From Demequina oxidasica (GTDB lineage: Bacteria; Actinomycetota; Actinomycetes; Actinomycetales; Demequinaceae): a stretch of DNA of 64,000 nucleotides. Location: the NCBI RefSeq assembly GCF_000975115.1, contig NZ_BBRE01000003.1, positions 124,001 through 188,000 on the forward strand. The letters are read 5' to 3'. The notes beneath the pieces were generated by a model, which did no database searches, was not told the origin of the DNA, and was given only the letters and a program-made list of their open reading frames with translations. Both the position numbers and the translations under genes were made by a program. Below, piece by piece: positions 4,690-20,902 of the stretch (its first letter is position 1; the number at the start of each line of letters is the position of its first letter).

Positions 4690-5295
4690 TTAAAGGGCGA
4701 CCGTGACGAGGGACTGAAGGTGTGTGCGCACGTCTGCCACCAGGTCGAACTTGGTCCGGCCATAGAGCCACTGCAACTGCAGTCCGTCAACAATCGCCAT
4801 CATTGAGCGCGCCGCGTGACCCGGCTCGACGCCAGGGCGAAGCGTGCCTTCTTCGCGCATCACGATAAAGGACTGGCGCGCCTGCGCCCCGATCCAGTCG
4901 TAGCGTCCCCGGAAATACTCATGGGCAGGGTGCTCTTCCGCCGTTCCCTCGGCAGCAAGGATCGCGTAAAGCTCTATCATCCCTGGTTCTTCACAGTTCA
5001 TGCGCACGACCTCGAGGAATCCACGAAGGGCCTCGATGCCGGGAGAGGTGACCGTGGCGAAGTACTCGCGGCTCCTCTCGTCCCGCAGATCGAGCACTGC
5101 CTGCAGCAGTCCGGTCTTGGATTTGAAGTGGAACAGAATACCCGCCTGGCTCAGCCCAACCCTGTCCGCGACGGTACGCAGTGAGCCGTTGGTATAGCCG
5201 CTCTCCGCGAACACCTCGAATGCAGCATCGAGGATGTCCCGGCGTCGATCTGCCGTCTTCGCGTAGCTTCCGCGGGTTGCCGTTGTGTCGCTCAT
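4690..5295 (-). CDS. TetR/AcrR-family transcriptional regulator
   Basis: A 201-residue protein with the TetR N-terminal helix-turn-helix at about residues 12-58 (RRDILDAAFEVFAESGY, then VGLSQAGILFHFKSK). The C-terminal half is the variable ligand-binding region and resembles TetR_C domains of actinobacterial regulators. The ATG at 5295 is chosen over an upstream start at 5328 because it begins the normal pre-HTH sequence MSDTTATRGSYAKTADRR. It lies between the rhamnosidase gene and the divergent importer operon. Both promoters share a 14-bp motif, so it likely represses both, with an imported glycoside as inducer (inferred). Confidence 0.9.
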   Translation of the reverse strand: MSDTTATRGSYAKTADRRRDILDAAFEVFAESGYTNGSLRTVADRVGLSQAGILFHFKSKTGLLQAVLDLRDERSREYFATVTSPGIEALRGFLEVVRMNCEEPGMIELYAILAAEGTAEEHPAHEYFRGRYDWIGAQARQSFIVMREEGTLRPGVEPGHAARSMMAIVDGLQLQWLYGRTKFDLVADVRTHLQSLVTVAL

Positions 5296-5360
5296 AATGC
5301 GCCACGTTAGCACCCCGAGGGCCCGCATTGGGGACGAGGTAATTGAAAACTAACCACCCC

Positions 5361-5433: not shown

Positions 5434-6996
5434 ATGAAGTTTTCATATCGCGCCACGGCAGTCACTGCGGTCGGTGTTCTGGCCTTGGCGGCATGCTCGT
5501 CGTCCGACAACGACCCGGGCGCCGAGCCCTCGAGTTCCACAGCTTCCACCGAGACGGGCGCCGCAATGGCACCTCTGCTGAACCTCGGGGTAGTCGACTC
5601 TCCTGGCCAAGGTGGCTTCGTGGCGGCGGACATGTCCTTTGCCACCAAGGCCCCGTACGGCCAGGCGATTTACGACACTCTCGTGCGCGCCACGCCGGAC
5701 AATCTGCTGGAGCCTGCGCTTGCCTCGGACTGGGGATACGACTCGGGCAAGACCGAACTGACGTTGAAGCTTCGTGATGACGTGAAATTCACGGATGGCA
5801 CCGACTTCAACGCCGATGCTGCGGCGCAGAACATCCTGCGATTCCGCGATGGCTCGGCCGAGAACGCAAACTGGCTAGCGAATGTTTCCGACGCTGTCGC
5901 GAAGGATCCCCACACACTTGTCATCACCCTCAGCGCGCCGGACCCGGCACTGTTGCTCAACCTGTCGCGGGCTGCTGGCTATCAGCAGTCCCCAGCCTCG
6001 TTCGACACTGACACTCCCGTGGGATCTGGTCCGTACGTGCTGGACCAGGCCGCGTCAGTCGTGGACGCGTCGTACATCTTCGATGCGAACCCCGACTACT
6101 GGGCTTCCGACTACCAGCACTATGACGAGATCGCCATGACGGTATTCGACGACCCCGTCTCTATGCAGAACGCGCTCATGGGCGATCAGCTGGACGCGGC
6201 ACTTTTCACGGGTTACCAGGGGTTTGACCAGATTGAGGGCGCGGGTTACACCGCACACGAATACGCTCAGGACTGGGAAGGCCTGCTCCTGTTCGACCGC
6301 ACCGGTCAACTTTCCGAGCCCATGGGCGACGTACGAGTACGCCAGTCGATCAACTTTGCGATCGACAAAGAGGGCCTCCTCCAGGGACTGGCCGGCGGGC
6401 GTGGCGAGGTCACTACACAGGTCTTCGGTAAAGAAACGCCTGGATATGACGCCGAGCTCGAATACGCGTACCCGTATGACCCCGAGAAGGCCAAGTCACT
6501 GCTTGCGGAAGCTGGCTACGCCGACGGTTTCACCATCGACTTCCCCACCGTGAGCTTTGTCCCGCAGGCCACTTTCGACCTCGTGGGCCAGCAGCTTGCC
6601 GAGGTTGGCATCACTGCTAACTTCACCGACATCGCACCCCAGGACTACTTCCCCACCATGCTGGGAGGCAACGTTGCCCTGGCATCGTTCCGCCTCGAGC
6701 AGCCGGCTACTGCATGGGAGACCTACTCTCTCGAGCTGAGCCAGGGAGCACCCTGGAACTCGTTCCACACGCCTGACGACGCAGTCGCAGGCTATGGCGA
6801 GATCATTCAGACGGGAAGCGATGCAGATTCCGCAGCTGCGGCGGCCGAGTTGAACAAGTACATCGTCGACCAGGCGTGGTTTAACCCGTGGTACCGCACT
6901 ATCACCACGTTCTACACCGACGCCGAGACTGATGTCACGCCTCAGGTCGGAAACGTGTACCCCTACCTCTGGAACATCGTTCCGGTCACCAACTAG
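5434..6996 (+). CDS. ABC transporter substrate-binding lipoprotein, family 5 (Dpp/Opp type)
   Basis: A 520-residue protein. The signal peptide begins MKFSYRATAVTAVGVLALAAC with the lipobox LAAC, so the modified Cys is at residue 21. The mature part has the family 5 solute-binding signature region (YGQAIYDTLVRATPDN) and the large two-lobe fold. Family members bind peptides, but many in actinobacteria and Thermotoga bind oligosaccharides. Here the flanking rhamnosidase and GH3 enzyme favour a rhamnosylated glycoside (inferred). It is the first gene of an operon continuing with two permeases and two ATPases. A strong hairpin follows the stop codon. Confidence 0.88.
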   Translation: MKFSYRATAVTAVGVLALAACSSSDNDPGAEPSSSTASTETGAAMAPLLNLGVVDSPGQGGFVAADMSFATKAPYGQAIYDTLVRATPDNLLEPALASDWGYDSGKTELTLKLRDDVKFTDGTDFNADAAAQNILRFRDGSAENANWLANVSDAVAKDPHTLVITLSAPDPALLLNLSRAAGYQQSPASFDTDTPVGSGPYVLDQAASVVDASYIFDANPDYWASDYQHYDEIAMTVFDDPVSMQNALMGDQLDAALFTGYQGFDQIEGAGYTAHEYAQDWEGLLLFDRTGQLSEPMGDVRVRQSINFAIDKEGLLQGLAGGRGEVTTQVFGKETPGYDAELEYAYPYDPEKAKSLLAEAGYADGFTIDFPTVSFVPQATFDLVGQQLAEVGITANFTDIAPQDYFPTMLGGNVALASFRLEQPATAWETYSLELSQGAPWNSFHTPDDAVAGYGEIIQTGSDADSAAAAAELNKYIVDQAWFNPWYRTITTFYTDAETDVTPQVGNVYPYLWNIVPVTN

Positions 6997-7103: not shown

Positions 7104-8045
7104 GTGGGACGCTTTATCGCGCGGCGCATACTGGCAGGAATCAGCCTGCTGTTCGTCATCACGAGTGCCGCCTATTTCCTGTTGTACTTGAGCGGCGGCG
7201 ACGTCGCTCGCAACCTCTTGGGGCCCACCGCGAGCGACGCACAGGTGGCCGCGAAGGCAACTGAACTCGGTCTCGACCAGCCGCTCCTCAATCGCTACTG
7301 GGACTGGCTCAGCGGCGCCCTCACCGGGGACTTTGGAACCTCGTGGGCATCCCGCGCTCCGGTGACTGAACTGCTCTCCGGCCGCGTAGCCGTCACCCTG
7401 ACCATCGTCGTCGCAGCCGTGATTGTGTCCGGAATAGGCGCCGTCGTACTCGGCTCGCTCGCCTCCTCACGAGGTGGCTGGGTGGACCGGACCATCCAAG
7501 TCGCATCGCTCGTCGGCGCAGCCGTGCCGGGATTCCTGATCGCCATGGTGCTGGTGCTGGTCGTCGCGATCAATCTCGGGTGGTTCGAGCCCACCGGCTA
7601 CATCAACCCTTCGACGTCGATCACCGGCTGGCTATCGACCGCCGTGCTCCCCATCACCGCGCTTGCCGTCGCTGGTGTTGCCGGAGTCACCCAACAGGTC
7701 CGTGGGTCCATGCTGGACGAGCGCCGCAAAGACTACGTTCGCACCCTCGAATGCCGTGGCCTCTCCTCCCGGACCATCACCTATCAGCACGTGCTGCGCA
7801 ACGCATCGGGGCCCGCCCTGAACGTATTGGCCCTGATGTTCGTAGCGATGTTAGGTGGAGCAGTCGTTGTCGAACAGGTGTTCTCAATTCCCGGCCTCGG
7901 CAAACTCACTGTTACTTCAACCCTGAGTAGCGACGTCCCCGTCATCATGGGCATTGTTGTGGTCACCGTCGTCCTCGTCGTCATTCTCAACCTGCTGATC
8001 GACCTATTGCAGGCTTGGCTCAACCCGAAGGTGCGCCTGTCATGA
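7104..8045 (+). CDS. ABC transporter permease, DppB type
   Basis: A 313-residue inner-membrane permease with about six transmembrane helices and the N-terminal BPD-permease segment (GRFIARRILAGISLLFVIT). The EAA-like loop lies near residues 210-235 (DYVRTLECRGLSSRTI, where DYVRTARAKGL is usual). The start codon is GTG with GGAG upstream. Its stop overlaps the start of the next gene by four bases (ATGA), so translation is coupled. It is the first of the two membrane subunits of the Dpp/Opp-type importer. Confidence 0.92.
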   Translation: MGRFIARRILAGISLLFVITSAAYFLLYLSGGDVARNLLGPTASDAQVAAKATELGLDQPLLNRYWDWLSGALTGDFGTSWASRAPVTELLSGRVAVTLTIVVAAVIVSGIGAVVLGSLASSRGGWVDRTIQVASLVGAAVPGFLIAMVLVLVVAINLGWFEPTGYINPSTSITGWLSTAVLPITALAVAGVAGVTQQVRGSMLDERRKDYVRTLECRGLSSRTITYQHVLRNASGPALNVLALMFVAMLGGAVVVEQVFSIPGLGKLTVTSTLSSDVPVIMGIVVVTVVLVVILNLLIDLLQAWLNPKVRLS

Positions 8046-9790
8046 CCGCTCCGCTTGCCCCAACCCCTCGCGTTGCCACACGCCGGCGCGCATCACTTCT
8101 ACGATCCGTTCTTCGCCAGCCACTCGGCGCCGTCGCTCTCGCAGTGATTGCATTGTTTGTCATCGTCGCGATCATTGGACCGTGGATTGTGCCCGGCGAC
8201 GCCTACACGGCACATCTGGACGCGATCCTTCTGCCGCCTGGGCCCGACCACATCTTGGGCACTGACCCCTCGGGGCGCGACGTCCTCAGCAGGCTCATCA
8301 TCGCCACTCGTTCCAGCATGCTCGGTGCTGCGATCGCCCTCGTGGTCGCAGCGGCCATCGGGATCTCGACTGGTTTGATTGCCGGCTATTACCGTGGCTG
8401 GTTCGAATCTGTCTTCAGCTACGGCGCGTCGCTCTTCCTTGCACTTCCGTCGATGGTCGTGCTGCTTGCAGCACGCTCGGTCATCGGACCCAACCTTTGG
8501 TGGGCGATGGTGATCTTCGGAGTGATCGTGTCACCAGCGTTCTACCGGCTAACCTTCGCCACTGTCGCAGGCGTCCGCCACGAGCTTTACGTTGACGCCG
8601 CACGCACGTCGGGATTGTCCGACGTCCGCATTGTCGGCCGACACATCCTCTCCGTGGTTCGCGCCCCCGTCATCATTCAGGCGGCTGGAATTGCCGGTGT
8701 CGCCATCGGCATTCAGGCTGGCCTCGAGTTCCTAGGAATGGGCGACGCCAAGCTCATCACCTGGGGAGGGATGCTGAACGACGGGTTCCAGGCGATTTAC
8801 CGGCAACCCTGGCTGCTGGCGTGGCCCACGCTCGCGCTAGTACTCATTTCTGTGGCCCTCACCCTCGTCGCCAACACCCTGCGTGACGTCCTGGAGCGGT
8901 CATCCAGTGCCCGCCGGTCTCGCTCCAGCGAGCAAGCGCCCGCGGTGTACACGATTCCGGCGGGGACAGCCCTGAGCGTGCGCGACCTTGAGGTCGCCTA
9001 CGGCGACGACAAGGCGAAGCAGGCTGTAGTCGTACGTAACGTCAGCTTCGATGTCGCACCTGGCGAGGTCCTTGGCCTCGTTGGCGAATCCGGCTCCGGC
9101 AAGACTCAGACAGCCTTCGCCATCCTCGATGTACTGCCTGGTGGTGGACGAATTACTGCGGGTTGCGTGGCGTTGGCCGGCAAGGTCACGACCCAGGCTG
9201 AGCGAGCACATGAACGCGGACGCTCTGTCGCGTACATCCCTCAGGAGCCGATGTCTAACCTCGATCCGTCTTACACAATCGGCGCCCAGCTCACCAAGCC
9301 GATGCGCAAGTGCGCGAAGATGACCAAGACCGAGGCCAACGCTAATGCGCTGCGACTCCTCAACCGGGTCGGTATCGCCAATCCCGAGCGCGTGATGGGG
9401 CTCTACCCTCACCAGGTGTCGGGAGGCATGGCACAGCGCGTACTCATCGCGGGCGCCATTGCGACCGAACCCGACGTCTTGATCGCGGACGAGCCGACAA
9501 CCGCACTGGACGTGACCGTGCAGGCCGAGGTTCTCGACCTGCTCAGGGACCTCCAGGCGGAGTTTGGTATGGCCATGGTGATCGTTACTCACAACTTTGG
9601 CGTCGTCGCGGATATTTGCGACCGAGTCGCGGTCATGCAGGACGGATCGATCGTCGAGACCGGAGACGTGGAGTCGGTCTTTGACCACCCGCAACACCCT
9701 TACACGCGCGAGTTGCTCGGCGCGATACTCGACGACGCCAGCGTCCGTGAGCTGCCTTCGCCCACGACTACGAATGGGGTGCTGTCATGA
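8042..9790 (+). CDS. fused ABC permease (DppC) and ATPase (DppD)
   Basis: A 582-residue protein. Residues 1 to about 290 are a DppC-type permease with a GTDPSGRDVLSRL motif after the first helix and an EAA-like loop (AARTSGLSDVRIVGRHIL). Residues about 300-582 are an ABC ATPase: Walker A GESGSGKT at about 348, signature SGGMAQR, Walker B VLIADEPTTALD, and the C-terminal HPYTRELL typical of Opp/Dpp ATPases. DppC and DppD are usually separate; the fusion is known in some actinobacteria and fixes their stoichiometry. The ATG at 8042 overlaps the upstream stop. It is followed by the partner ATPase with another ATGA overlap. Confidence 0.92.
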   Translation: MTAPLAPTPRVATRRRASLLRSVLRQPLGAVALAVIALFVIVAIIGPWIVPGDAYTAHLDAILLPPGPDHILGTDPSGRDVLSRLIIATRSSMLGAAIALVVAAAIGISTGLIAGYYRGWFESVFSYGASLFLALPSMVVLLAARSVIGPNLWWAMVIFGVIVSPAFYRLTFATVAGVRHELYVDAARTSGLSDVRIVGRHILSVVRAPVIIQAAGIAGVAIGIQAGLEFLGMGDAKLITWGGMLNDGFQAIYRQPWLLAWPTLALVLISVALTLVANTLRDVLERSSSARRSRSSEQAPAVYTIPAGTALSVRDLEVAYGDDKAKQAVVVRNVSFDVAPGEVLGLVGESGSGKTQTAFAILDVLPGGGRITAGCVALAGKVTTQAERAHERGRSVAYIPQEPMSNLDPSYTIGAQLTKPMRKCAKMTKTEANANALRLLNRVGIANPERVMGLYPHQVSGGMAQRVLIAGAIATEPDVLIADEPTTALDVTVQAEVLDLLRDLQAEFGMAMVIVTHNFGVVADICDRVAVMQDGSIVETGDVESVFDHPQHPYTRELLGAILDDASVRELPSPTTTNGVLS

Positions 9791-10644
9791 CCGAGCCATT
9801 GTTGGCAGTTGAAGACCTGCGTGTCGCCTATCCAGGGCGAGGCTTTCGCTCGCCTGACACGGAGATCCTGCACGGCGTCTCGCTCGACATCACCGCCGGC
9901 GAAACAGTCGGCCTCGTAGGCGAATCCGGGTCGGGCAAGACGACGCTCGGTCGCGCGCTTCTGGGCCTCGCGCCAGTGACCGGCGGACGCATCAAGTTCA
10001 AGGGTGAGGACATCACCCACGCCGACAAGGCCGCGCGCCGACGCCTCACACGCGACATTCAGGTGGTATTTCAGGACCCCTACACGTCCATGAATCCCAA
10101 CCTGACAATCGAGCAGACGCTCACCGAGCCTCTGCGAGCGAACGGAACGAGCAAACGGGATGCCCTCGACAAGGTAGCCGCGATGCTCGATGCCGTACAC
10201 CTGCCCACCGACTCATTGGGGCGCTATCCCAACGAGTTCTCCGGCGGACAGCGTCAGCGCATCGCGGTCGCACGCGCGCTCACTCTCGATCCCTCGCTGA
10301 TCGTTTGCGATGAGCCCGTGTCCGCCCTCGACCTCAGCAATCAGCGCCGTGTTCTCGACCTCTTTATCGAGATCCAGGAACGCACCGGCGTCGCATATCT
10401 CTTTGTGTCGCACGACCTGGCGGTAATCCGTCACCTCAGCCATCGTGTCGCTGTGCTCTACCAAGGCGACATCGTGGAGTGGGGCGGGTGCGACCAAGTG
10501 ACAGCGTGTCCGGAACACCCGTATACCCAGCGCCTCCTCATGGCAGCGCCAGTTCCCCACCCGATCAAGCAGGCACGGCATCGCGCGGATCGCCAGCGAG
10601 TCCTTGCGGCGCAACGCGAAGCCGAACTGCAGTCCGGCGCTTAA
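9787..10644 (+). CDS. ABC transporter ATPase, DppF type
   Basis: A 285-residue ATPase with Walker [10 protein letters not shown] at about residue 45, Q-loop QDPYTSMNP, signature FSGGQRQR, Walker [13 protein letters not shown], switch His in [10 protein letters not shown], and HPYTQRLL near the end. Residue order and length are those of DppF/OppF. It would pair with the ATPase half of the preceding fusion protein to power import. The coding region overlaps the fusion gene by four bases and is followed after 63 bases by the GH3 fusion gene. Confidence 0.93.
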
Positions 10645-10707: not shown

Positions 10708-13089
10708 ATGTCTCTACCAAGTGCCGCCATTTTCGACCTTGACGGCGTGATTGTCGACACCGCTCCCTTGCACTTCAATGCCTGGCGCCACACCGCGGCA
10801 GAGCTGGGATTCGAGCTCGACGCCGCCACGGGCGAGGGACTCAAGGGAGTCGGTCGTGGAGACGCGCTCGAGATCGTGCTTCGCTCCGGCGGCATCGACC
10901 CCTCCACGGTCGATGCGGGCAGGCTCGCGGACCAGAAGAACGACCGCTACGTGAAGTCACTGGAGTCCATCTCCACTGCAGATCTGCTTCCGGGCGCACT
11001 CCAATTGCTGACGGACCTGCGTGAAGCCGGCGTCCCCGTCGCATTGGCAAGCGCGAGCCGCAACGCCCTCACTATCTTGGAGCGGCTCGGCATCGTCGGA
11101 CTCTTCGACGCCATCGTCGACGGCAATCAGATTCTGCGCACCAAGCCCGACCCAGAGGTCTTCCTTCTTGCCGCCGAACTACTGGGAGTCGATGCCGCAA
11201 AGTGCGTCGTCTTCGAGGATGCCGATGCCGGGGTGGCTGCGGCGACCGCGGCAGGAATGAGGGTTGTCGGCATCGGTTTGCCGGGCACCCTTCTGGCGGC
11301 CGATGCTGTGGTGCCCGACCTTGCGCACGTCACTGAGACACCGGCGGCGCTCCTTCCCGACCTCAACGCGCTGCACGGGGTTCACCTTGACCGAGCACCA
11401 TTCCACCTCGACGACGAGGCTCAGCAGTGGGTTCGTTCCACTCTCGCATCCTTAAATGGGGACCGGCGCGTGGGTCAGCTCTTCTGCCTACTTGCCGACC
11501 CCGACACCACCACACAGGCAGACGCGGATTTCGCGGTGGCGGAGCCCGGCGGCTACATGCGGCGCCCCTCGATGTCTCACGACGTCGTTTCCTTCAACAC
11601 GTATCTCCAGAGCAAGGCCGACGTCCCGCTGCTCATCGCGGCTAACCTTGAAGCCGGCCCCCACGGCGTTGCCTTTGACCAGACATCCATGGGCTCTCCT
11701 CTCCAGGCAGCCGCTACGGGTGACGCAGAGAGTGCGCGCCGCATCGGCGAAGTCTGCGCCGTCCAGGGTCGCGCCATGGGAGTGAACTGGGCCTTCTCAC
11801 CCATCGTGGATATCCAACTCAACTGGCGCAACCCCATTGTCCTCACGCGGGGCTTTGGATCCAACGCGAGTGTCGTTGCCGACATGGGCGAGGCATTCGT
11901 CAAGGGACTGCAGGACAACGGCGTCGCCGCTTCGGTCAAACACTGGCCGGGCGATGGCGTAGACGATCGCGACCAACACCTGGTCACCACTGTTAATACG
12001 TTGTCGACCGACGAATGGGACTCATCGTTTGGTGCCGTCTACCGCCGCATGATCGAAGCAGATGCGCTGACCATCATGGCCGCCCACATCGCCCTTCCCA
12101 GCTACTCGAGGGCGCTGCGTCCGGGCATCGCCGACGACGACATTCTGCCCGCAAGCCTCGCTCCAGAGATCACCACCGAGCTGCTCCGTGACCGACTTGG
12201 CTTCGCCGGCGTCGTCGTGACAGACGCGTCGCTCATGGCTGGAATGCAGATGTCGATGCCCCGTGCTCAGGCAGTTCCGCAGTCCATAGCCGCGGGTTGC
12301 GACATGTTCCTCTTCACTGAGGACTACGCCACCGACCTCGAGCACCTACGTGCCGGAATCGCAGCGGGGATCGTCTCAACAGCGCGACTCAACGAGGCTG
12401 TGACCCGAGTTCTCGCGCTCAAGGCCGCTCTTGGGCTGCACCACGCCTCGACTCAGGCCGACCTCGTTCCTGACTCACTGGCCCAGGTCAATCGCGGTCA
12501 GCACGAGGGCTGGGCCGCTGAGCAGGCGGCTCGCGCCATCACGCTCGTGAAGAGTGAGGAAGGCCTACTGCCACTTTCCGTAAGTGAGCGTCCGCGCGTC
12601 CTGCTTTACTCACTTCGCGGCGGTCCTATGCCGTCAACAGGTCCCGCGGAGAAGTTCCGGGATGCCCTCAATGAGCGCGGATTTACTGCCACGTTGCACG
12701 TCGATCCGCCCCGCGAGGAAACAATGTTCCGCCCCGTGGGCCAGGCTGGTGCCGTCACGGGCGCCGAACTCTTCGAGGGCTACGACGCGGTGATCTACGT
12801 CGCCGACATTCAGCCGTCCTCGAATTTCCACACCGCTCGCCCAGATTGGACCTTCTGGACGGCGGCGAACCTGCCGCGCTTCACTCACTCGATTCCTACC
12901 CTGTTCGTGTCGCTCGGCAACCCGTACCACCTGCAGGATGTCCCTCGTGTCAAGACGTATGTCAACGCATACGCCGCCAATGATGCGACCGTGGAGGCTG
13001 TCGTCAATTGCCTCACCGGCGCGGCACCCTTCCTGGGAACCTCGCCCGTCGACCCGTTCTGTGACTATTGGGATGCGAGGCTGACCTAG
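10708..13089 (+). CDS. beta-phosphoglucomutase / GH3 glycosidase-phosphorylase fusion
   Basis: A 793-residue protein of two enzymes. Residues 1-220 are a HAD-family beta-phosphoglucomutase: FDLDGVIVD (nucleophile D10, acid/base D12), the cap motif LKGVGRGDALE, ALASASRN, and KPDPEVF. Residues about 235-793 are GH3. The (beta/alpha)8 barrel carries KHWPGDG at 411-417, the D422-Q-H424 dyad on the loop used as acid/base in NagZ-like GH3 enzymes, and the likely nucleophile D506 in VVTDASLM. A C-terminal Rossmann-like domain follows. GH3 enzymes with this dyad include true glycoside phosphorylases. A retaining beta-phosphorylase would make a beta-sugar-1-phosphate, the substrate class of beta-PGM. 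There is no signal peptide. Sugar specificity is unknown. Confidence 0.88.
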   Translation: MSLPSAAIFDLDGVIVDTAPLHFNAWRHTAAELGFELDAATGEGLKGVGRGDALEIVLRSGGIDPSTVDAGRLADQKNDRYVKSLESISTADLLPGALQLLTDLREAGVPVALASASRNALTILERLGIVGLFDAIVDGNQILRTKPDPEVFLLAAELLGVDAAKCVVFEDADAGVAAATAAGMRVVGIGLPGTLLAADAVVPDLAHVTETPAALLPDLNALHGVHLDRAPFHLDDEAQQWVRSTLASLNGDRRVGQLFCLLADPDTTTQADADFAVAEPGGYMRRPSMSHDVVSFNTYLQSKADVPLLIAANLEAGPHGVAFDQTSMGSPLQAAATGDAESARRIGEVCAVQGRAMGVNWAFSPIVDIQLNWRNPIVLTRGFGSNASVVADMGEAFVKGLQDNGVAASVKHWPGDGVDDRDQHLVTTVNTLSTDEWDSSFGAVYRRMIEADALTIMAAHIALPSYSRALRPGIADDDILPASLAPEITTELLRDRLGFAGVVVTDASLMAGMQMSMPRAQAVPQSIAAGCDMFLFTEDYATDLEHLRAGIAAGIVSTARLNEAVTRVLALKAALGLHHASTQADLVPDSLAQVNRGQHEGWAAEQAARAITLVKSEEGLLPLSVSERPRVLLYSLRGGPMPSTGPAEKFRDALNERGFTATLHVDPPREETMFRPVGQAGAVTGAELFEGYDAVIYVADIQPSSNFHTARPDWTFWTAANLPRFTHSIPTLFVSLGNPYHLQDVPRVKTYVNAYAANDATVEAVVNCLTGAAPFLGTSPVDPFCDYWDARLT

Positions 13090-13103: not shown

Positions 13104-13196
13104 GCGGCAAGCCCGCGTCACGCCCTCGTAGCTCAGCGGATAGAGCACCGGTCTCCGGTACCGAAGGTCGCAGGTTCGACTCCTGTCGAGGGCACC
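13104..13196. repeat. 93-bp direct repeat, right copy (contains tRNA-Arg)
   Basis: The partner of 1606-1698, with 92 of 93 bases identical. It ends 2 bases past the tRNA discriminator base and directly abuts the stop codon of the LacI-family gene at 13197. Homologous recombination between the copies would delete the 11.5-kb rhamnosidase/importer block and leave one intact tRNA gene. Confidence 0.9.
13122..13194 (+). tRNA. tRNA-Arg (anticodon CCG), copy 2
   Basis: The same 73-base cloverleaf as the tRNA at 1624-1696, with full acceptor pairing and the anticodon loop CTCCGGT, again giving CCG. The only change is C at loop position 32. The identical 18-base 5' flank shows that the copies arose by duplication of a segment larger than the gene. 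Confidence 0.93.
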
Positions 13197-14219
13197 CTAT
13201 GTTGCGGCTGCGGCCGTTGACTCGCGCACCACGAGCTCCGGCTGAAACACCACCTGCTGACTGTCGCGCTCCTCACCAATATCTCCGAGCAAAAGTTCGA
13301 CCGCCGTCGAACCGATGAGCTCGCGAGGCTGGCGCACGGACGTGACGGGAACCACTGCGGCGGCCGCAAAGCTGATGTCGTCGTAGCCGACCAGCGCCAC
13401 GTCGCGGGGAATGCTCAGCGGCTCCGGGCCGCTCAGGAGGGCCTGTTGCACACCGAGAGCGACCAAATCGTTCGCGGCAAAGATGGCATCGAAGCGGCCG
13501 GTGCGCACTCCCGCTCCGACGCGGGCGCCGGCAGTCTGACCTGCGGCGAGAGTCAGGGCGCTCGTCTCGATGTACTCGACGCTGCCGCGGCCAGCGGCCT
13601 CGACCGCATCGCAGGCTCCGCGATACCGATCCGCCACCTGCCTGATTCTGAGCGGGCCGCCTACGAAGGCGATCTTGGTGCGGCCGATGGCGATCAGGTG
13701 CTCCGTCGCAATACGGCCTCCCGCAACATCGTCTACCGATACCGAAGGGAAGTCGCTGTCGGTGGCTCCACGGTCGACGAGCACCACGGGAATGCCTCGC
13801 GCACGCAGCCGGTGCAGTCGCGGCAGGTCGTCGCTCACGGGCGAGATCAGCACGCCGGCAACCCGCTGCGTCTCGAACAAGTCCAGGTACCGGTCCTCGC
13901 GCTCGGAGGACTCATCACTGTTGGCCAGTAGCACGCTCAGTCCCACGTCAGCGGCGGCGCGTTCCGCTCCCTTTGCGAGGTCCGTAAAGAACGGGTTGCC
14001 GACATCGAGGACGATCAGTCCGAGAGACGTGCTCTGACCTGCGCGCAGTTGGCGCGCTGCCGCGTTGGGGACGTAGCCAAGGTCGGCGATGGCACGGTTG
14101 ACGCGCTCGACAGTGGCCGCCTTGACGCGGTCAGGTCGGTTGAGCACGTTTGAGACAGTGCCCGAGGACACCCCGGCGCGCACCGCCACGTCCTTGAGGC
14201 TGATTGTCACGTTATCCAC
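13197..14219 (-). CDS. LacI-family transcriptional regulator of the rhamnose operon
   Basis: A 340-residue repressor. The N-terminal LacI HTH is SLKDVAVRAGVSSGTVSNVLNR split into its two helices, followed by the hinge AARQLRAGQS and a periplasmic-binding-protein-like sugar domain (GLIVLDVGNPFF to the C-terminus). The start is GTG at 14219 or GTG at 14210; LacI proteins often begin at the second (MTISLKD). It is divergent from the rhamnose mutarotase and importer genes, whose promoters hold AACGATTC-type sites, so it probably represses them with rhamnose or a pathway intermediate as inducer (inferred). Confidence 0.9.
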   Translation of the reverse strand: MDNVTISLKDVAVRAGVSSGTVSNVLNRPDRVKAATVERVNRAIADLGYVPNAAARQLRAGQSTSLGLIVLDVGNPFFTDLAKGAERAAADVGLSVLLANSDESSEREDRYLDLFETQRVAGVLISPVSDDLPRLHRLRARGIPVVLVDRGATDSDFPSVSVDDVAGGRIATEHLIAIGRTKIAFVGGPLRIRQVADRYRGACDAVEAAGRGSVEYIETSALTLAAGQTAGARVGAGVRTGRFDAIFAANDLVALGVQQALLSGPEPLSIPRDVALVGYDDISFAAAAVVPVTSVRQPRELIGSTAVELLLGDIGEERDSQQVVFQPELVVRESTAAAAT

Positions 14220-14266
14220 GCTCCACTGTGTTGTGTTCCTTCACACTCTAATGGATGGTTCGAGAA

Positions 14267-14288
14267 TTGACGACGATTCATTTATACT
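14267..14288 (+). promoter_or_regulatory. rhaM promoter with LacI-type operator
   Basis: A -10 hexamer TATACT is at 14283-14288. Immediately upstream, TTGACGACGATTCA (14267-14280) resembles the operator TTGAAACGATTCAA at 14778-14791 (11 of 14 positions). A repressor bound here would cover the -35 to -10 region of rhaM and sit upstream of the divergent lacI-type gene. Confidence 0.5.
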
Positions 14289-14311
14289 GCTGCGAGCGTA
14301 GGGTGTTGACC

Positions 14312-14659
14312 ATGACGCGCATCTGCTTCCAACTCCAGGTCCGGCCCGAGCTGATCGACGAGTATGTCGAACTCCATCGGGCTGTATGGCCCCCAATGTT
14401 GCGTGCGATCGAGGATTCTGGTCGCACCAACTACTCCCTGTTCCTACGCGAGGACGGGTTGCTGGTGGGCTATTACGAGACCAATGACGATGTCGAATCA
14501 GCGCGCCGCCTTGCGGAAGATCCACGTACCGAGGAGTGGGAAGAACAGGCACAACGCTTCTTCGTGGCCTTGGAGGGAAGCCGGGCCGACCAGAGCGCCC
14601 CCTTGCTTCGCGAAGTATTCAATCTCGAGGAACAGGTCGCGACCTTAGACACCCAGTAG
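14312..14659 (+). CDS. rhaM: L-rhamnose mutarotase
   Basis: A 115-residue protein that interconverts alpha and beta anomers of L-rhamnose, supplying the isomerase with its preferred anomer. It matches the RhaM family in length (about 105-115) and in motifs: CFQLQVRPELIDEYVELH near the start, VWPPMLRAIEDSGRTNYS (the His and Trp/Pro region of the active site), and YYETNDD. The start ATG at 14312 is preferred over 14255, because the added residues would span the promoter. It is the first gene transcribed away from the LacI-type regulator. Confidence 0.93.
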   Translation: MTRICFQLQVRPELIDEYVELHRAVWPPMLRAIEDSGRTNYSLFLREDGLLVGYYETNDDVESARRLAEDPRTEEWEEQAQRFFVALEGSRADQSAPLLREVFNLEEQVATLDTQ

Positions 14660-14718
14660 CCGCCGCCCACCACCCCATCTTCAACGCCTCAATTGGATTG
14701 CGCATGCAGCGGTATTAC

Positions 14719-14791
14719 GGAATCGTTACCCGGCTCGGCTTGACGCATAGCCGACTGACACCTAAAGTTCTAACAAGTTGAAACGATTCAA
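14719..14791 (+). promoter_or_regulatory. rhamnose importer promoter with two operator candidates
   Basis: A -35 TTGACG (14740-14745) is separated by exactly 17 bases from a -10 TAAAGT (14763-14768). A near-palindrome TTGAAACGATTCAA at 14778-14791 lies over the expected transcription start. A second, inverted half-match GGAATCGTTACC lies at 14719-14730, upstream of the -35. The shared core AACGATTC is also near the mutarotase promoter, which suggests cooperative binding by the LacI-family repressor encoded next door. Confidence 0.6.
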
Positions 14792-14812
14792 TTTGAGACA
14801 AAAGGACCGTCA

Positions 14813-16339
14813 ATGTCGACAACCTCTGAGCCTGGCTCCGCCCAAGGCCCCGCGCTACGCCTCGACGGCGTCGCCAAGTCCTTTGGGCCCGTCGTTGCCC
14901 TCAAATTCGCCTCGCTGGACATGCTGCCGGGCAGCATCCACGCGCTGATCGGCGAGAACGGCGCAGGCAAGTCCACCCTCGTCAAAATCATCGCGGGTCT
15001 CTACCAGCGCGACAGCGGCGTCTTTGAGTACCAGGGCGACGTCGTCGATTTCTCCAACACCGCACAATCCAAGGACGCCGGCATCGCCGTGATTTACCAG
15101 GAGCCCACCCTGTTCCCTGACCTGTCGGTCACTGAGAACATCTTCATGGGGCGTCAGCCCACTGGCTCGCTAGGTCGGATTGACCGCAAGGCCATGCGTG
15201 CCACTGTTAAGGACCTTTTCACGCAGCTCGGGGTCAACATCGACCCCGACCGCCCCACGCGCGGGCTGTCGATCGCGGATCAGCAGATCATCGAGATCGC
15301 CAAGGCCATCTCGCTCGATGCTCGCGTACTGATCATGGACGAGCCCACCGCCGCACTGAGTGGCGTCGAGGTCGACCGCCTCTTCAAGGTGGCCCGCGGC
15401 CTCCGCGACGAGGGACGCGCGCTGCTATTCATTTCACACCGCTTCGACGAGGTCTTCGCGCTCTGCGACACCGTCACCGTCATGCGCGACGGAGAGTACG
15501 TCGCCACTTCCGCGATCGCCGAGACCACTGTCGAGGAAATGGTGCACCAGATGGTGGGCCGCGAGGTTGCCACCCTGTTCCCCAAGGAGCCCGCCGAGAT
15601 CGGCGACGAGGTGCTCAAGGTGGAGAACCTGACGGAACCTGGCGTCTTCCACGACGTCTCATTCTCCGTGCGTTCCGGGGAGATCGTTGCGCTTGCGGGC
15701 CTGGTAGGCGCCGGGCGCAGCGAGATCGCTCAGGCGATCTTCGGCGTCGACGACTACGAGTCCGGCACTGTCACGATCAACGGTAAGTCCGTGCGCAAGC
15801 ACGACCCCGCGAAAGCCATGGACCTAGGCATCGCGCTGGTTCCGGAGGATCGCCGCAAGCAGGGCGTCGTCCTCGACACCTCCGTGTCGCGCAACATCAC
15901 ACTCGCCATTCGCAAGACGCTCACCAAGGCCGGGCTGCTGTGGCCCACCGCAGAGAACCGTGCCGCGAGCCACTGGGCAGGACGTCTCGAGGTTAAGACA
16001 AACGCCCTCGACACCACCGTCGGTACCCTGAGCGGCGGCAACCAGCAGAAGGTGGTGCTCGCCAAGTGGCTGGCCACCAACCCCAGCCTGCTGATCGTCG
16101 ACGAGCCCACCCGCGGCATCGACATCGGCACCAAGTCAGAAGTTCACCGCGACCTGTCGCGACTAGCCGGACAGGGGCTCGCCATCATCATGATTTCCTC
16201 CGAACTGCCCGAGGTGCTCGGCATGGCCGACCGCGTCCTGGTGGTCCACGAGGGGCGCATTACGGCCGAGATTGATCGCGCCGATGCAACGCCTGAGTCA
16301 GTCATGTTCGCCGCCACCCACTCGAAGGCGGTTGCGTAA
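14813..16339 (+). CDS. rhamnose ABC importer, tandem ATPase
   Basis: A 508-residue protein with two ABC modules, as in RbsA/RhaT of carbohydrate uptake family 2. Module 1 has GENGAGKS at 47-54 and Walker [12 protein letters not shown], but a degenerate signature [14 protein letters not shown]. Module 2 has GLVGAGRS in place of Walker A (the usual CUT2 degeneracy), signature [15 protein letters not shown] and [14 protein letters not shown]. It energises import by the two permeases encoded next. AAAGGA lies 7 bases before the ATG. The stop overlaps the next start (TAATG). Confidence 0.93.
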
Positions 16340-17397
16340 TGAGCATCTCCTCCACCTCAATCCTCGCCGAGTCGAACATCCTCGCCAAGCTCGGCCGCAT
16401 CGGCAAGGCCCGCGAGCTCGGCATCTTCCTGGCCTTCGTCCTGGTGGTGGCAGTCACCACCATCCAGAACCCGAACTTCCTGTTCTCCTCCGATGGCTTT
16501 CGCGACCTGCTCGTGACGCCCTCGATCCTGATGATCGTGGCCGTCGGCCAGGCCATCGTGATCATCACCCGCAACGTTGACTTGTCGGTGGGCTCCGTCG
16601 TGGGCCTCAGCGCCTACCTCACCGGCCGTGTCTTCATCGACTACCCGCAGCTTCCGTGGCCCACCGTGTTCGTCATCGGCCTCGTGTTCGGCGCGCTGCT
16701 GGGCCTGATCAATGGTGCGCTGGTGGCGTTCGCGAAGGTTCCGTCGCTCGTGATCACCTTGGGAACGCTCTACGCCTTCCGCGGCATCAACGTGCTGTGG
16801 ACCGGTAGCGACCGTATCAACGCCTCCGACATGCCCTCAAGCTTCCTCGCACTCGGCACGAGTTCGTGGTGGAAGATCCCCGTGATCACCATCATCGCGC
16901 TCATCGTGTTAGCGATCGCAGGCTTCTACATGTATACCCAGCGCGGCGGCCGTGAGCTGTACGCCATCGGATCCGACCCCGATGCCGCCAACCTATACGG
17001 CCTCAAGGTCAAGAAGCGCATCCTCGCGGCCTTCATTATGTCCGGTGCCCTCGCGGGCCTGGCGGGAGTGCTGTACGCCGCCCGCTACGGAACCGTGAAC
17101 TCGCAGGTGGGCTCAGGTCTCGAGCTCGAGGCCGTGGGTGCCGCCGTGATCGGTGGCGTGGCTATCTTCGGAGGCTCGGGCAGCGTGTTTGGCGCCGCGA
17201 TCGGCGCGTTCTTACTTCTCACCATCAACCGGGCACTCCCCGTCCTGGGCGTCCAGGACTTCTGGCAACGCGCCGTGGTTGGCGCCCTCATCATCGGCGC
17301 AATCGTGCTCGACAAGCTCGCCGCGAACAGACAGGAACGAAAACTCGTGGAACTGCGAGATACCGAGGCTGAGCAGAAGGAGGCGCAAAATGTCTAA
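16339..17397 (+). CDS. rhamnose ABC importer, permease 1
   Basis: A 352-residue membrane protein of the BPD_transp_2 (RbsC-like) family with about eight to ten helices. It carries the CUT2 markers GQAIVIITRNVDLSVGS and YAIGSDPDAANLYGLKV, and the late motif GAAVIGGVAIFGGSG. It resembles RhaP of rhizobial rhamnose transporters. It overlaps the ATPase gene by one base at its start and the second permease gene by 8 bases at its end, so the subunits are translationally coupled. Confidence 0.92.
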   Translation: MSISSTSILAESNILAKLGRIGKARELGIFLAFVLVVAVTTIQNPNFLFSSDGFRDLLVTPSILMIVAVGQAIVIITRNVDLSVGSVVGLSAYLTGRVFIDYPQLPWPTVFVIGLVFGALLGLINGALVAFAKVPSLVITLGTLYAFRGINVLWTGSDRINASDMPSSFLALGTSSWWKIPVITIIALIVLAIAGFYMYTQRGGRELYAIGSDPDAANLYGLKVKKRILAAFIMSGALAGLAGVLYAARYGTVNSQVGSGLELEAVGAAVIGGVAIFGGSGSVFGAAIGAFLLLTINRALPVLGVQDFWQRAVVGALIIGAIVLDKLAANRQERKLVELRDTEAEQKEAQNV

Positions 17398-18496
17398 CGC
17401 CACCATCGAAAAGACCGCGCCTCGCACGTACAACGACTACGCGCAGCCACTGTGGCGCCGCGTGCTCCTCACCCGCGAGATGGCCGTCGTGGCCGCACTC
17501 ATCGCGGTCTACATCGTCGCGGCCATCATGGTCCCCAACTTCTCCGCCCCCATCACCATCACGTACCTGCTGCTCGACGTCGCGGCGATCCTATTCATCG
17601 CGCTGCCAATGACCATGATCATCATCACCGGTGAGATCGACTTGTCAGTGGCGAGCGTCGTGGGCCTGTCGAGCGTGATGTTTGGCATCACCTACCAGGC
17701 GGGGATTCCCATTCCCTTCTGCATCCTGATCAGCCTCGTGGTCGGCGCCATCGCCGGCTTCATCAACGGCTTCCTGATCACTGTGGTGGGACTGCCCTCG
17801 CTGGCCGTCACCATCGGTACCTTGGCCCTATTCCGCGGCCTCGCGGTCGGCTTCCTCGGCACTACCGCGGTCACGGGTTTCCCGGAGACCTGGTCCGACC
17901 TCGCGACCTCGACCATCCCCGGCACTCCCATCCCGTCGATCATGGTGATCTTCGTGGTGCTGCTGGCGCTGTTCGCCCTACTCCTCCACGCCACCCCGTT
18001 CGGTCGCGGCGTATTCGCAATCGGCCAGTCGTCAGAGGCCGCACGGTTCTCCGGCGTGCGCGTCGAGCGCACCAAGATGAAGCTCTTCATCCTGAGTGGC
18101 ATCCTCGCGGCGCTCGCCGGCGTCTACTACACGCTTCGCTACGGCAGCGCCCGCGGCGACAACGCCACCGGCATGGAGCTTGGAGTTATCGCCGCGGTTC
18201 TCCTCGGAGGCGTTTCCATCTTTGGCGGCCGGGGAGCACTCCACGGCGTCATCGCCGGCGTGCTGCTGATCGGCACACTTGCCAGCGCACTTCGCCTTGC
18301 CAACGTGACGTCTGACGTCATCAACATCATCACGGGAACACTGCTCGTGTTCTCCGTGGTGTCGCCAAGTTTCTTCGCTTGGGCGCGCTCCAAATGGGCT
18401 CGCTCACGAGGGAAGAGGGGGTCCGGCTCTGCATCCCAGGCTGCCGAGCCGCCCGCCATCACCCAACCCGATGACACCCCATCGAACAACAAGTAA
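17390..18496 (+). CDS. rhamnose ABC importer, permease 2
   Basis: A 368-residue RbsC-like permease (RhaQ-like) with the same CUT2 markers as its neighbour: ITGEIDLSVASVVGLSS and GVIAAVLLGGVSIFGGRG. The start is the ATG at 17390 preceded by AGAAGGAGG; a longer frame from 17153 only overlaps the upstream permease. A hydrophilic C-terminal tail of about 35 residues rich in Ser, Pro and Ala follows the last helix. Two different permeases suggest a heterodimeric channel. Confidence 0.92.
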   Translation: MSNATIEKTAPRTYNDYAQPLWRRVLLTREMAVVAALIAVYIVAAIMVPNFSAPITITYLLLDVAAILFIALPMTMIIITGEIDLSVASVVGLSSVMFGITYQAGIPIPFCILISLVVGAIAGFINGFLITVVGLPSLAVTIGTLALFRGLAVGFLGTTAVTGFPETWSDLATSTIPGTPIPSIMVIFVVLLALFALLLHATPFGRGVFAIGQSSEAARFSGVRVERTKMKLFILSGILAALAGVYYTLRYGSARGDNATGMELGVIAAVLLGGVSIFGGRGALHGVIAGVLLIGTLASALRLANVTSDVINIITGTLLVFSVVSPSFFAWARSKWARSRGKRGSGSASQAAEPPAITQPDDTPSNNK

Positions 18497-18505
18497 GGGA
18501 TCACA

Positions 18506-19588
18506 ATGATGTTTTCTATGCAGTCCAAGAAGGGTGCCTTTGCCGCTCTCGCGGTCACGGCGGCCCTCGTCATGGCCGGCTGCTCCAGCAGCTCTGACGA
18601 CACCACCGAGTCCCCCGACGCCGGCACCAGCCCCGCGGCTTCCAGCAGCAGTGACGACGCGATGACCAGCGACGCCAACCTCGCGATCACATTCCTACCC
18701 AAGAACCTCGGCAACGCCTACTTCGACACGTCCGATGCTGGTGGCGAGGAGGCCATCAACGAGTTCGGCGGCACTTACGCCGAGGTCGGGCCCGCCGAGG
18801 CGTCGCCCGATGCTCAGGTCAGCTACATCAACACGCTCACCCAGCAGGGTGTTGGCGGCATCGCGGTCTCCGCAAACGACCCCGAGGCGATTTGCTCGGC
18901 TCTGAACGATGCACGTGACGCTGGCGTCAAGGTTGTCACGTTCGACTCTGATACCAACCCCGACTGCCGCGACTTGTTCATCAACCAGGCGACGTCAGAC
19001 GGCATTGCTCAAGTTCAGGTCGACATGATCGCCGAGCAGATTGGCGACGAGGGCCAGATTGCAATTCTGTCCGCCACCGCCAACGCGACCAACCAGAACG
19101 CCTGGATCGAGACCATGAAGACGATCCTCGCTGCTGACCACCCGAACATCGAGCTCGTGGACGTTGTCTACGGCGACGATGACGACCAGACCTCGTTCGA
19201 CAAGACGGCAGCACTGCTGCAGACCTACCCCGAGCTCAAGGGCATCGTTTCGCCCACCACTGTCGGTATCACCGCTGCTGCTCGTTACCTCTCCACGTCT
19301 GAGTCAAAGGGCAAGGTCGCGATCACCGGACTCGGTACCCCAAACCAGATGCGTTCGTACGTTGAGGACGGCACCTGCACCGCATTCGCACTGTGGAACC
19401 CGGCCGACCTCGGCTACCTCGCTGCCTACGCCAACAAGGCGCTCATCGAGGGCACCATCACCGGCGCCGAAGGCGACTCCTTCGAGGCCGGCAAGCTCGG
19501 CTCGTACACCGTTGACGCAGACGGCACCGTGCTGCTCGGCACCCCGTACGTGTTCAACGCAGACAACATCGGCGACTTCGACTTCTAG
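18506..19588 (+). CDS. rhaS: rhamnose ABC importer, substrate-binding lipoprotein
   Basis: A 360-residue type 1 periplasmic-binding-like protein. The signal peptide ends in the lipobox MAGC with the modified Cys at about residue 26, followed by a Ser/Asp-rich linker. The mature domain has the sugar-binding order AITFLPKNLGNAYF, AISVSANDPEAI-like residues and FINQATSDGIAQ, as in RhaS of Rhizobium. Operon position after two CUT2 permeases and before the isomerase gene supports rhamnose as substrate. A hairpin follows the stop. Confidence 0.9.
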   Translation: MMFSMQSKKGAFAALAVTAALVMAGCSSSSDDTTESPDAGTSPAASSSSDDAMTSDANLAITFLPKNLGNAYFDTSDAGGEEAINEFGGTYAEVGPAEASPDAQVSYINTLTQQGVGGIAVSANDPEAICSALNDARDAGVKVVTFDSDTNPDCRDLFINQATSDGIAQVQVDMIAEQIGDEGQIAILSATANATNQNAWIETMKTILAADHPNIELVDVVYGDDDDQTSFDKTAALLQTYPELKGIVSPTTVGITAAARYLSTSESKGKVAITGLGTPNQMRSYVEDGTCTAFALWNPADLGYLAAYANKALIEGTITGAEGDSFEAGKLGSYTVDADGTVLLGTPYVFNADNIGDFDF

Positions 19589-19597
19589 TCGCCGCCT

Positions 19598-19654
19598 CGC
19601 ATGCCCGGCTGGCCCCTCCCCTGGTTGCCGGTCGGGCATGCGCCCCTCGGGGCG
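19598..19654 (+). terminator. intra-operon hairpins after the rhamnose-binding protein gene
   Basis: A 10-bp stem CGCATGCCCG (19598-19607) pairs with CGGGCATGCG (19633-19642). A second possible hairpin, CGCCCC-TC-GGGGCG (19641-19654), overlaps the right arm by two bases, so the structures compete. No T-run follows. Like the hairpin at 7001-7033, it probably raises binding-protein mRNA relative to downstream genes rather than ending the operon. Confidence 0.6.
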
Positions 19655-19689
19655 CTCCACCACTCTTACTTCTTTAGACAGGAAATACC

Positions 19690-20856
19690 GTGACTAGCTT
19701 CGACTCGATCGCCTCCAGGCTTGACGAGCAGGCCATCGAACTGCCCTCCTGGGCCTTCGGTAACTCCGGAACCCGCTTCAAAGTATTCACCCAGCCGGGT
19801 GGCCCGCGCGATCCTTTCGAGAAGATCTCCGACGCCGCGCAGGTACACAAGCACACGGGCCTGTCCCCCTCAGTCGCGCTGCACATCCCTTGGGACAAGG
19901 TCGATGACTACGCCGCCCTGTCGAACCACGCGCAGGGACTCGGGGTCGCGCTGGGCACCATTAACTCGAACACCTTCCAGGATGACGACTACAAGCTGGG
20001 CTCGCTGACCCATTCCGATTCAGCGATCCGCCAAAAGGCGATCGACCACCACTTCGAGTGCATCGATGTCATGGACAAGACCGGTTCGCGCGACCTGAAG
20101 ATCTGGCTCGCCGACGGCACCAACTACCCTGGCCAGGACGACATGCGCGGCCGCCAGGACCGCCTCGCCGACTCGCTGCAGCAGATCTACGCGCGCATCG
20201 GAGACGACCAGCGCCTGGTCCTCGAGTACAAGATCTTTGAGCCCGCGTTCTATCACATGGACGTTCCCGACTGGGGAACCAGCCTGGTGCAGTGCCTCGC
20301 CCTGGGCGACCGCGCATCGGTCTGCCTTGACACCGGCCACCACGCCCCCAGCACCAACATCGAGTTCATCGTGATGCAGCTGCTGCGCCTGGGCAAGCTC
20401 GGCTCGTTCGACTTCAACTCGCGCTTCTACGCCGACGACGACCTGATCGTCGGCGCCGCCGACCCATTTCAACTGTTCCGCATCATCTTCGAGGTGATCC
20501 GCGGCGGCGGCTACGGCTCCGAGGGCGACACCGCCTTCATGCTCGACCAGTGTCACAACATCGAGGACAAGATCCCCGGCCAGATCCGCAGCGTTCTCAA
20601 CGTCCAGGAGATGACGGCGCGCGCACTACTCGTGGACCGCGAGGCGCTCGACGCCGCGCAGCGCTCCGGCGACGTGCTCGCCGCCAACTCGCTCATGATG
20701 GACGCCTTCTACACCGACGTTCGTGGCCCGCTTGCTGAGTACCGCGAGTCTCGCGGCCTTCCCGGCGACCCGATGGCCGCCTACCTGGCCAGCGGCTACG
20801 GCCAGCAGATCGCCGAGGACCGCGTAGGCGGAGTCCAGGCCAGCTGGGGCGCGTAA
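19690..20856 (+). CDS. rhaI: L-rhamnose isomerase, RhaI type
   Basis: A 388-residue cytosolic enzyme that converts L-rhamnose to L-rhamnulose. It is the metal-dependent xylose-isomerase-like form found in Pseudomonas and actinobacteria, not the E. coli RhaA form. Likely metal ligands lie in VLEYKIFEPAFYHMD, CLDTGHHAPSTNIEF and FDFNSRFYADDD. The start is GTG at 19690 with AGGAAA upstream. Kinase, aldolase and mutarotase genes of the same pathway surround it. Confidence 0.93.
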   Translation: MTSFDSIASRLDEQAIELPSWAFGNSGTRFKVFTQPGGPRDPFEKISDAAQVHKHTGLSPSVALHIPWDKVDDYAALSNHAQGLGVALGTINSNTFQDDDYKLGSLTHSDSAIRQKAIDHHFECIDVMDKTGSRDLKIWLADGTNYPGQDDMRGRQDRLADSLQQIYARIGDDQRLVLEYKIFEPAFYHMDVPDWGTSLVQCLALGDRASVCLDTGHHAPSTNIEFIVMQLLRLGKLGSFDFNSRFYADDDLIVGAADPFQLFRIIFEVIRGGGYGSEGDTAFMLDQCHNIEDKIPGQIRSVLNVQEMTARALLVDREALDAAQRSGDVLAANSLMMDAFYTDVRGPLAEYRESRGLPGDPMAAYLASGYGQQIAEDRVGGVQASWGA

Positions 20857-20902
20857 GCACCCACTCGCAATCTTCTTACAACACACAACTAAGGAATCCT
20901 CC

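Follow-up and report, generated by a model that had tools for sequence, protein, structure and literature searches.

The beta-phosphoglucomutase (bPGM) of Lactococcus lactis is a free-standing protein and is known to cooperate with a maltose phosphorylase of family GH65. Phosphorylases of glycoside hydrolase family 3 (GH3) have rarely been characterized: only two are listed in the accessible part of a 2022 review, among them the beta-glucoside phosphorylase BglP (PMC8950772). BglP (5VQD/5VQE, AUG44408.1) is metagenome-derived, its source organism being uncultured, and its solved chain of 573 residues is devoid of a mutase domain. Nag3 of Cellulomonas fimi, compared here by description only, is likewise a GH3 enzyme with a histidine acid/base and a reported phosphorylase; its preferred substrate is GlcNAc-anhydro-MurNAc, and the accessible part of the review mentions no fusion to bPGM (PMC8950772). 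Whether GH3 enzymes bearing the Asp/His dyad act as phosphorylases or hydrolases is disputed in the accessible text of two reports (PMC6572805, PMC6987092): the dyad-type N-acetylglucosaminidases LpqI (PMC6572805) and RmNag3 (PMC6987092) are described there as hydrolases that respond weakly or not at all to phosphate.

The stretch of Demequina oxidasica DNA analyzed as a whole (64,000 nucleotides, hereafter the window) contains both kinds of domain, as predicted, in a single open reading frame at 10708-13089 (+), which starts with ATG downstream of an AAAGGA motif, is free of internal stops and encodes a bPGM joined to a BglP-type GH3 enzyme (793 aa). The bPGM half comprises residues 1-212 (10708-11343, +), the linker residues 211-223 (11338-11376, +) and the GH3 half residues 224-793 (11377-13086, +), the latter being BglP-like over its full length according to sequence, fold and tree. 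The putative acid/base dyad D422-Q423-H424 (11971-11979, +) and the putative nucleophile D506 (12223-12225, +) are numbered correctly (DRDQH begins at residue 420, VTDASLM at residue 504). Since the full-length fused frame recurs in 8/58 other genomes examined (61-90% identity) and both halves are split neighbors in a ninth (G025), the joint is no assembly error. The coding sequences suggest purifying selection on both halves, with dN/dS values of 0.06-0.28 for the window gene versus L009 and L010 at a dS of approximately 1, i.e. near saturation. The AlphaFold2 model of the whole fusion reached a pLDDT of 91.6 and a pTM of 0.75; confidence in the linker was low (residues 211-223 below 50), and the modeled orientation of the two domains relative to each other is unsure.

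Residues 6-190 scored 215.8 bits against the bPGM equivalog model TIGR01990 (cut-off 189.4), in agreement with the N-terminal beta-PGM recognized in a preliminary description of this DNA. The nearest solved structure of the mutase half was the L. lactis enzyme (1LVH; E 2.4e-47, 164.7 bits over residues 6-209), the catalytic residues of which are retained. The assignment rests on sequence, the structure-comparison matches listed (50 shown by Foldseek) being GH3 proteins only. In an alignment of the window's HAD domain with 39 of the 58 GH3-linked HADs described below, the catalytic residues D10, D12, T18, H22, R50, K77, S115, S117, N119, K146, E170 and D171 were invariant (40/40), and all 40 matched TIGR01990 at E<=1e-20, which is an E threshold and not the curated cut-off. 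The catalytic roles of the D10/D12 pair, the cap residue R50 and the K146/E170/D171 set are presumed to be those of the L. lactis enzyme. The mutase half is very probably active on beta-glucose-1-phosphate (beta-Glc1P). A profile search of the genome revealed no second protein above the TIGR01990 cut-off.

The remainder of the protein had been described as GH3 with a D422-Q-H424 dyad and the nucleophile D506, and it bears out that description: residues 300-570 matched PF00933 with 198 bits (cut-off 27), and both motifs were found at exactly these positions. Nag3 had been put forward as the enzyme for comparison; by sequence, fold and tree, the proper relative is instead BglP (5VQD). It was the top PDB sequence match of the GH3 half, aligned over the full length from its own residue 8 (429 bits; runner-up 131), and in the comparison based on the AlphaFold2 model it led the matches listed (VIA Z 58.8, rmsd 1.6 over 545 residues) ahead of Bacillus subtilis YbbD/NagZ (Z 50.4, rmsd 3.0); Foldseek gave a concordant result. 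The two proteins share the dyad, the nucleophile and the PGDG..D.RDQH loop, the BglP counterparts of D422/H424 being D204/H206 as counted in the 5VQD chain; K411, H412, D416, D419, D422, H424 and D506 were identical in all 91 aligned GH3 rows including BglP. In a quick maximum-likelihood tree of these 91 rows, BglP and the window GH3 fell into one clade of 78 rows (SH-aLRT 98), outside of which the lower-identity set L098-L107 was placed. The BglP branch is long (1.29) and lies near the base of this clade, and identity between the GH3 half and BglP is only approximately 41%.

The association of the two enzymes extends beyond the fusion. Among the GH3 loci of the best 80 of 529 confirmed relatives, 58 carried a bPGM-like HAD, in every case (58/58) on the GH3 strand: four were fused, 34 were situated within 200 bp and 20 farther off; three of the 58 HAD matches (L040, L043, L063) were weak, of short length or truncated where a contig ends. 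Within the same best 80 of 529, the 22 loci lacking a bPGM comprised 12/70 of the main clade and all ten of L098-L107; four of the main-clade misses (L038, L057, L077, L094) had approximately 6 kb available on both sides, and several others lay on truncated contigs. The control was drawn from 20 linkage-bearing genomes with 128 PF00933 matches: 60 non-BglP-like GH3 loci from 18 genomes were taken with up to 6 kb per side, six of these stretches being shortened by contig ends. The selection excluded BglP-like matches and a single NagZ-like gene (G467:C242:49778) that lies near a BglP-like one, and G456 and G457 did not contribute, their one PF00933 match each being BglP-like. None of the 60 control loci contained a bPGM-like HAD, compared with 58/80 (best 80 of 529; Fisher p 2e-21), and the top scorer among them reached 155 bits and 27% identity to the window GH3. 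The linkage in 20/20 of the control genomes is no result, because these genomes were chosen for having it. Linked loci among the best 80 of 529 relatives originated from Actinomycetota, Bacillota, Chloroflexota, Spirochaetota and Mycoplasmatota; for Verrucomicrobiota and Pseudomonadota in this set, linkage was indicated by weak, cut matches only. At five loci (L076, L079, L083, L084, L089), a bPGM gene has a BglP-like GH3 gene on either side (GH3-bPGM-GH3), as if one mutase were supplied from two substrates.

The neighboring genes offer an indication of the substrate. Upstream and divergent from the fusion lies a GH78 alpha-L-rhamnosidase gene (1712-4618, -; PF17389 405 bits; start MSQARN assigned by eye), the genome's only PF17389 match, for which no signal peptide was seen by eye, followed by a TetR-family regulator gene (4690-5328, -; profile matches) that is conserved in the cassette. 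Co-oriented with the fusion are genes for a family-5 solute-binding protein (PF00496 profile match; 5434-6996, +; lipobox seen by eye) and an Opp/Dpp-type ABC importer recognized by profile matches: a DppB-like permease (7104-8045, +), a DppC-DppD-like permease-ATPase fusion (8042-9790, +) and a DppF-like ATPase (9787-10644, +), likewise part of the cassette. The DppC-like permease and the DppD-like ATPase thereby share one frame. Downstream, a LacI-family regulator gene (13197-14219, -; profile matches) precedes an operon for rhamnose uptake and catabolism (14255-24378, +; profile matches) with RhaM, a sugar ABC ATPase, two permeases, RhaS, RhaI, the aldolase-dehydrogenase RhaD and a rhamnulokinase-like FGGY kinase. 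RhaS, RhaI and RhaD (NCBIfam) and RhaM (Pfam) exceeded their cut-offs; the top match of the kinase was rhamnulokinase, under cut-off, and the ATPase and permeases resembled importers of monosaccharides but stayed below every cut-off listed. Peptides are the cargo for which Dpp-type importers are mainly known, a point against the pathway preferred below.

GH78, TetR and binding-protein genes were found 5' of the fusion in 8/8 other Demequina fusion regions (some GH78 genes being cut by the region end); Dpp permease matches were absent from two Demequina regions (L110, L112), and a GH78 match was absent at the usual place in the split region of Demequina phytophila (L117). Within the best 80 of 529 relatives, 22/80 loci contained a GH78 gene, compared with 3/60 control loci (Fisher p 6e-4), and in 12 of the 22 (L045, L047, L050, L055, L058, L061, L062, L069, L074, L075, L078, L088) it was positioned between GH3 and bPGM. 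The GH78-like protein in this position is short (approximately 490 aa) in L047, L050, L055, L058, L061, L075 and L088; those of L047 and L088, the two that were run, matched Glyco_hydro_78_N and Bac_rhamnosid6H. A GH1 gene lies between DppF and bPGM in the Demequina clusters L113, L114, L115 and L117 and also occurs in L031 (PF00232 180 bits for L113; the other four by sequence likeness). The Chloroflexota locus L035 shows the order GH78, esterase-like gene, GH1-like gene, bPGM, GH3.

The preliminary description had deduced a phosphorylase from the dyad, and this argument has to be divided. The phosphorylase itself gains support from the kinship with BglP and from the bPGM partner gene; the dyad alone is no proof, as it is also present in LpqI and RmNag3, GH3 enzymes reported as hydrolases, and as a proof it was rejected. 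That beta-Glc1P as the product would feed the beta-PGM, the logic of the same description, is in line with the bPGM domain and the bPGM-GH3 gene linkage. If the GH3 half were an ordinary hydrolase with glucose as its product, beta-Glc1P for the bPGM half would have to come from elsewhere, and gene order would have given rise to the fusion as a by-product. In favor of such an enzyme are the reported hydrolases with the same dyad (as described in the accessible text of PMC6572805 and PMC6987092) and the 12/70 main-clade loci (best 80 of 529 relatives) with no bPGM in the available stretch. However, GH65 as the alternative source was rejected, a profile search having revealed no GH65 match in the genome; because a second bPGM above cut-off was also missing, these searches recognized no beta-Glc1P route other than the fusion. 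Moreover, the linkage in 58/80 loci (best 80 of 529) as opposed to 0/60 other GH3 loci and the phosphorylase activity listed for BglP, the nearest enzyme of known activity (accessible part of PMC8950772), render an ordinary hydrolase quite unlikely. Phosphorolysis is favored on the grounds of the BglP kinship and the bPGM partner gene, and the GH3 half is, as far as can be read from the sequences, likely to work in this way with considerable confidence. The substrate might still be an N-acetylglucosaminide, i.e. peptidoglycan or chitin pieces, from which the GH3 half would produce GlcNAc-1-P and the HAD would move or remove the phosphate. Opp-type importers are able to carry muropeptides, and GlcNAc-1-P activity is listed for both Nag3 and BglP in the accessible part of the review (PMC8950772). 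This is nevertheless very improbable: the NagZ model PRK05337 gave 106.1 bits, below its cut-off of 207, so that a NagZ beta-N-acetylhexosaminidase was rejected; the loop reads PGHG in YbbD/NagZ versus PGDG in the window and in 91/91 rows of the clade alignment, the HAD exceeds the bPGM cut-off, and the neighbors are rhamnose genes.

With phosphorolysis of a beta-glucoside as the preferred reaction, the same chemistry could act on a fragment of a bacterial polysaccharide, e.g. gellan-derived Glc-beta-Rha-Glc, in place of a plant glycoside. The gellan route requires a beta-glucosidase and a GH78 rhamnosidase, and genes of both kinds (GH3, GH78) are present here; it also needs GH88/105, for which a profile search of the genome gave no match (PF07470). 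Gellan pieces are less likely for this reason, and the route was rejected; the esterase and GH1 partners in other loci also suit acylated plant glycosides better, so that a polysaccharide fragment appears unlikely. The flanking GH78 gene, ABC importer and rhamnose operon rather suggest rhamnosyl-beta-glucosides of plants as the likely food, in line with the rutinose-type (rhamnosyl) substrate envisaged in the preliminary description; we regard a rhamnosyl-glucoside as somewhat the better bet. Substrates other than rhamnosides may apply at some loci, because no GH78 was found in 58/80 loci (best 80 of 529), part of which contained esterases, GH1 or a sulfatase.

The reading that we prefer, at a probability of roughly three in four, is that of a bifunctional enzyme in a rhamnosyl-beta-glucoside pathway which would convert R-beta-Glc and phosphate via beta-Glc1P to glucose-6-phosphate (Glc6P) in one chain. 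The lipoprotein and the Dpp-type ABC importer would take up a rhamnosyl-beta-glucoside of the flavonoid diglycoside type, the GH78 enzyme would strip off the rhamnose, and the rhamnose operon would burn it. In the fusion protein, which we infer to be cytosolic, the GH3 half would operate as a BglP-clade phosphorylase that cleaves beta-glucosides with retention: D506 would attack the anomeric carbon, the leaving aglycone would be protonated by H424, which D422 holds in place, and inorganic phosphate instead of water would release the glucosyl enzyme as beta-Glc1P, which the bPGM half would convert to Glc6P by means of D10 and D12. The remaining beta-glucoside would thus enter metabolism as Glc6P without expenditure of ATP; any benefit that the fusion may add is equally conjectural.

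No fusion outside Demequina was found among the loci of the best 80 of 529 relatives, and in 396 evenly drawn Actinomycetota genomes the window's own genome was the sole match at E<=1e-60; the best 80 of 529 relatives did, however, include single Actinotalea and Propionibacteriaceae records with an unfused relative. In Demequina phytophila (L017/L032), bPGM and GH3 are separate genes with an ATGA overlap after GAGGAGGAG. A corresponding GGAGGAGACCATG, i.e. an in-frame ribosome site plus ATG, is retained at the joint (codon 231 or 235) in 6/10 fused genes examined, the linker being the place of this relic internal start in the six relatives; it is lacking in the window gene, L009, L010 and L011. 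According to the quick tree, the fused genes form one clade in which D. phytophila and the truncated record L033 are nested, and this topology would take marginally fewer steps with one fusion and one later split than with three fusions. As far as gene sequences tell, the Demequina fusion is best explained by descent from neighboring bPGM and GH3 genes that were translationally coupled. Demequina gelatinilytica (G020; L111:9134-11421) possesses, in the vicinity of GH78 and LacI genes, a further BglP-like GH3 that is not fused, together with a bPGM-like HAD (35% identity); this GH3 is most like that of Actinotalea, with which it groups in the tree.

The cassette from GH78 to the fusion is bracketed by two 93-bp direct repeats (1606-1698, + and 13104-13196, +) that are identical at 92/93 positions, the left one just outside the cassette. 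Each contains a complete tRNA-Arg(CCG) (1624-1698 and 13122-13196), and the copies differ by one base in the anticodon loop (tRNA position 32; T at 1655 versus C at 13153). The full repeat occurs twice in G036; the close matches listed for other genomes were 89-96% identical and mostly single, with two in G027. The repeats may indicate that the cassette was inserted at a tRNA gene; in an empty-site comparison, the tRNA loci of relatives matched the repeat flanks only partly.

The fusion had been held to be new, which needs qualification: GH3 and bPGM are often operon partners, and a bPGM-family HAD was found N-terminal to GH65 in related genomes, in 3/3 long ORFs inspected (L214, L215, L216; G037 and G042). 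Proteins in which a bPGM-family HAD is joined to an enzyme of the phosphorylase type are therefore already known. The GH65 fusions resemble the window protein in the N-terminal position of the HAD and differ from it in that the glycoside enzyme is GH65, not GH3; no GH65 family was reported for the window protein by profile search at E<=0.001, and their HADs exceed the TIGR02009 cut-off but, for TIGR01990, either fall below the cut-off or are missing from the matches listed at E<=1e-30. A literature search, with most subscription papers outside its scope, found no report of a GH3-bPGM fusion or operon. In a wider and decidedly tentative interpretation, for which we see less than an even chance, BglP-clade GH3 and bPGM might constitute a route, widespread in several phyla and so far undescribed, by which plant (rhamnosyl) beta-glucosides are used at a saving of ATP and which Demequina would have combined in one channeling enzyme, several species also producing free phosphorylase via the internal ribosome site. 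The fusion could serve as a tool, i.e. as a one-protein readout of beta-glucoside phosphorolysis in the form of Glc6P. A dedicated bPGM partner, fused in one genus and linked by operons in several phyla, would set one GH3 clade apart as genuine phosphorylases of beta-glucosides; BglP would gain a physiological role, and the phosphorylase/hydrolase dispute in GH3 would become testable gene by gene.
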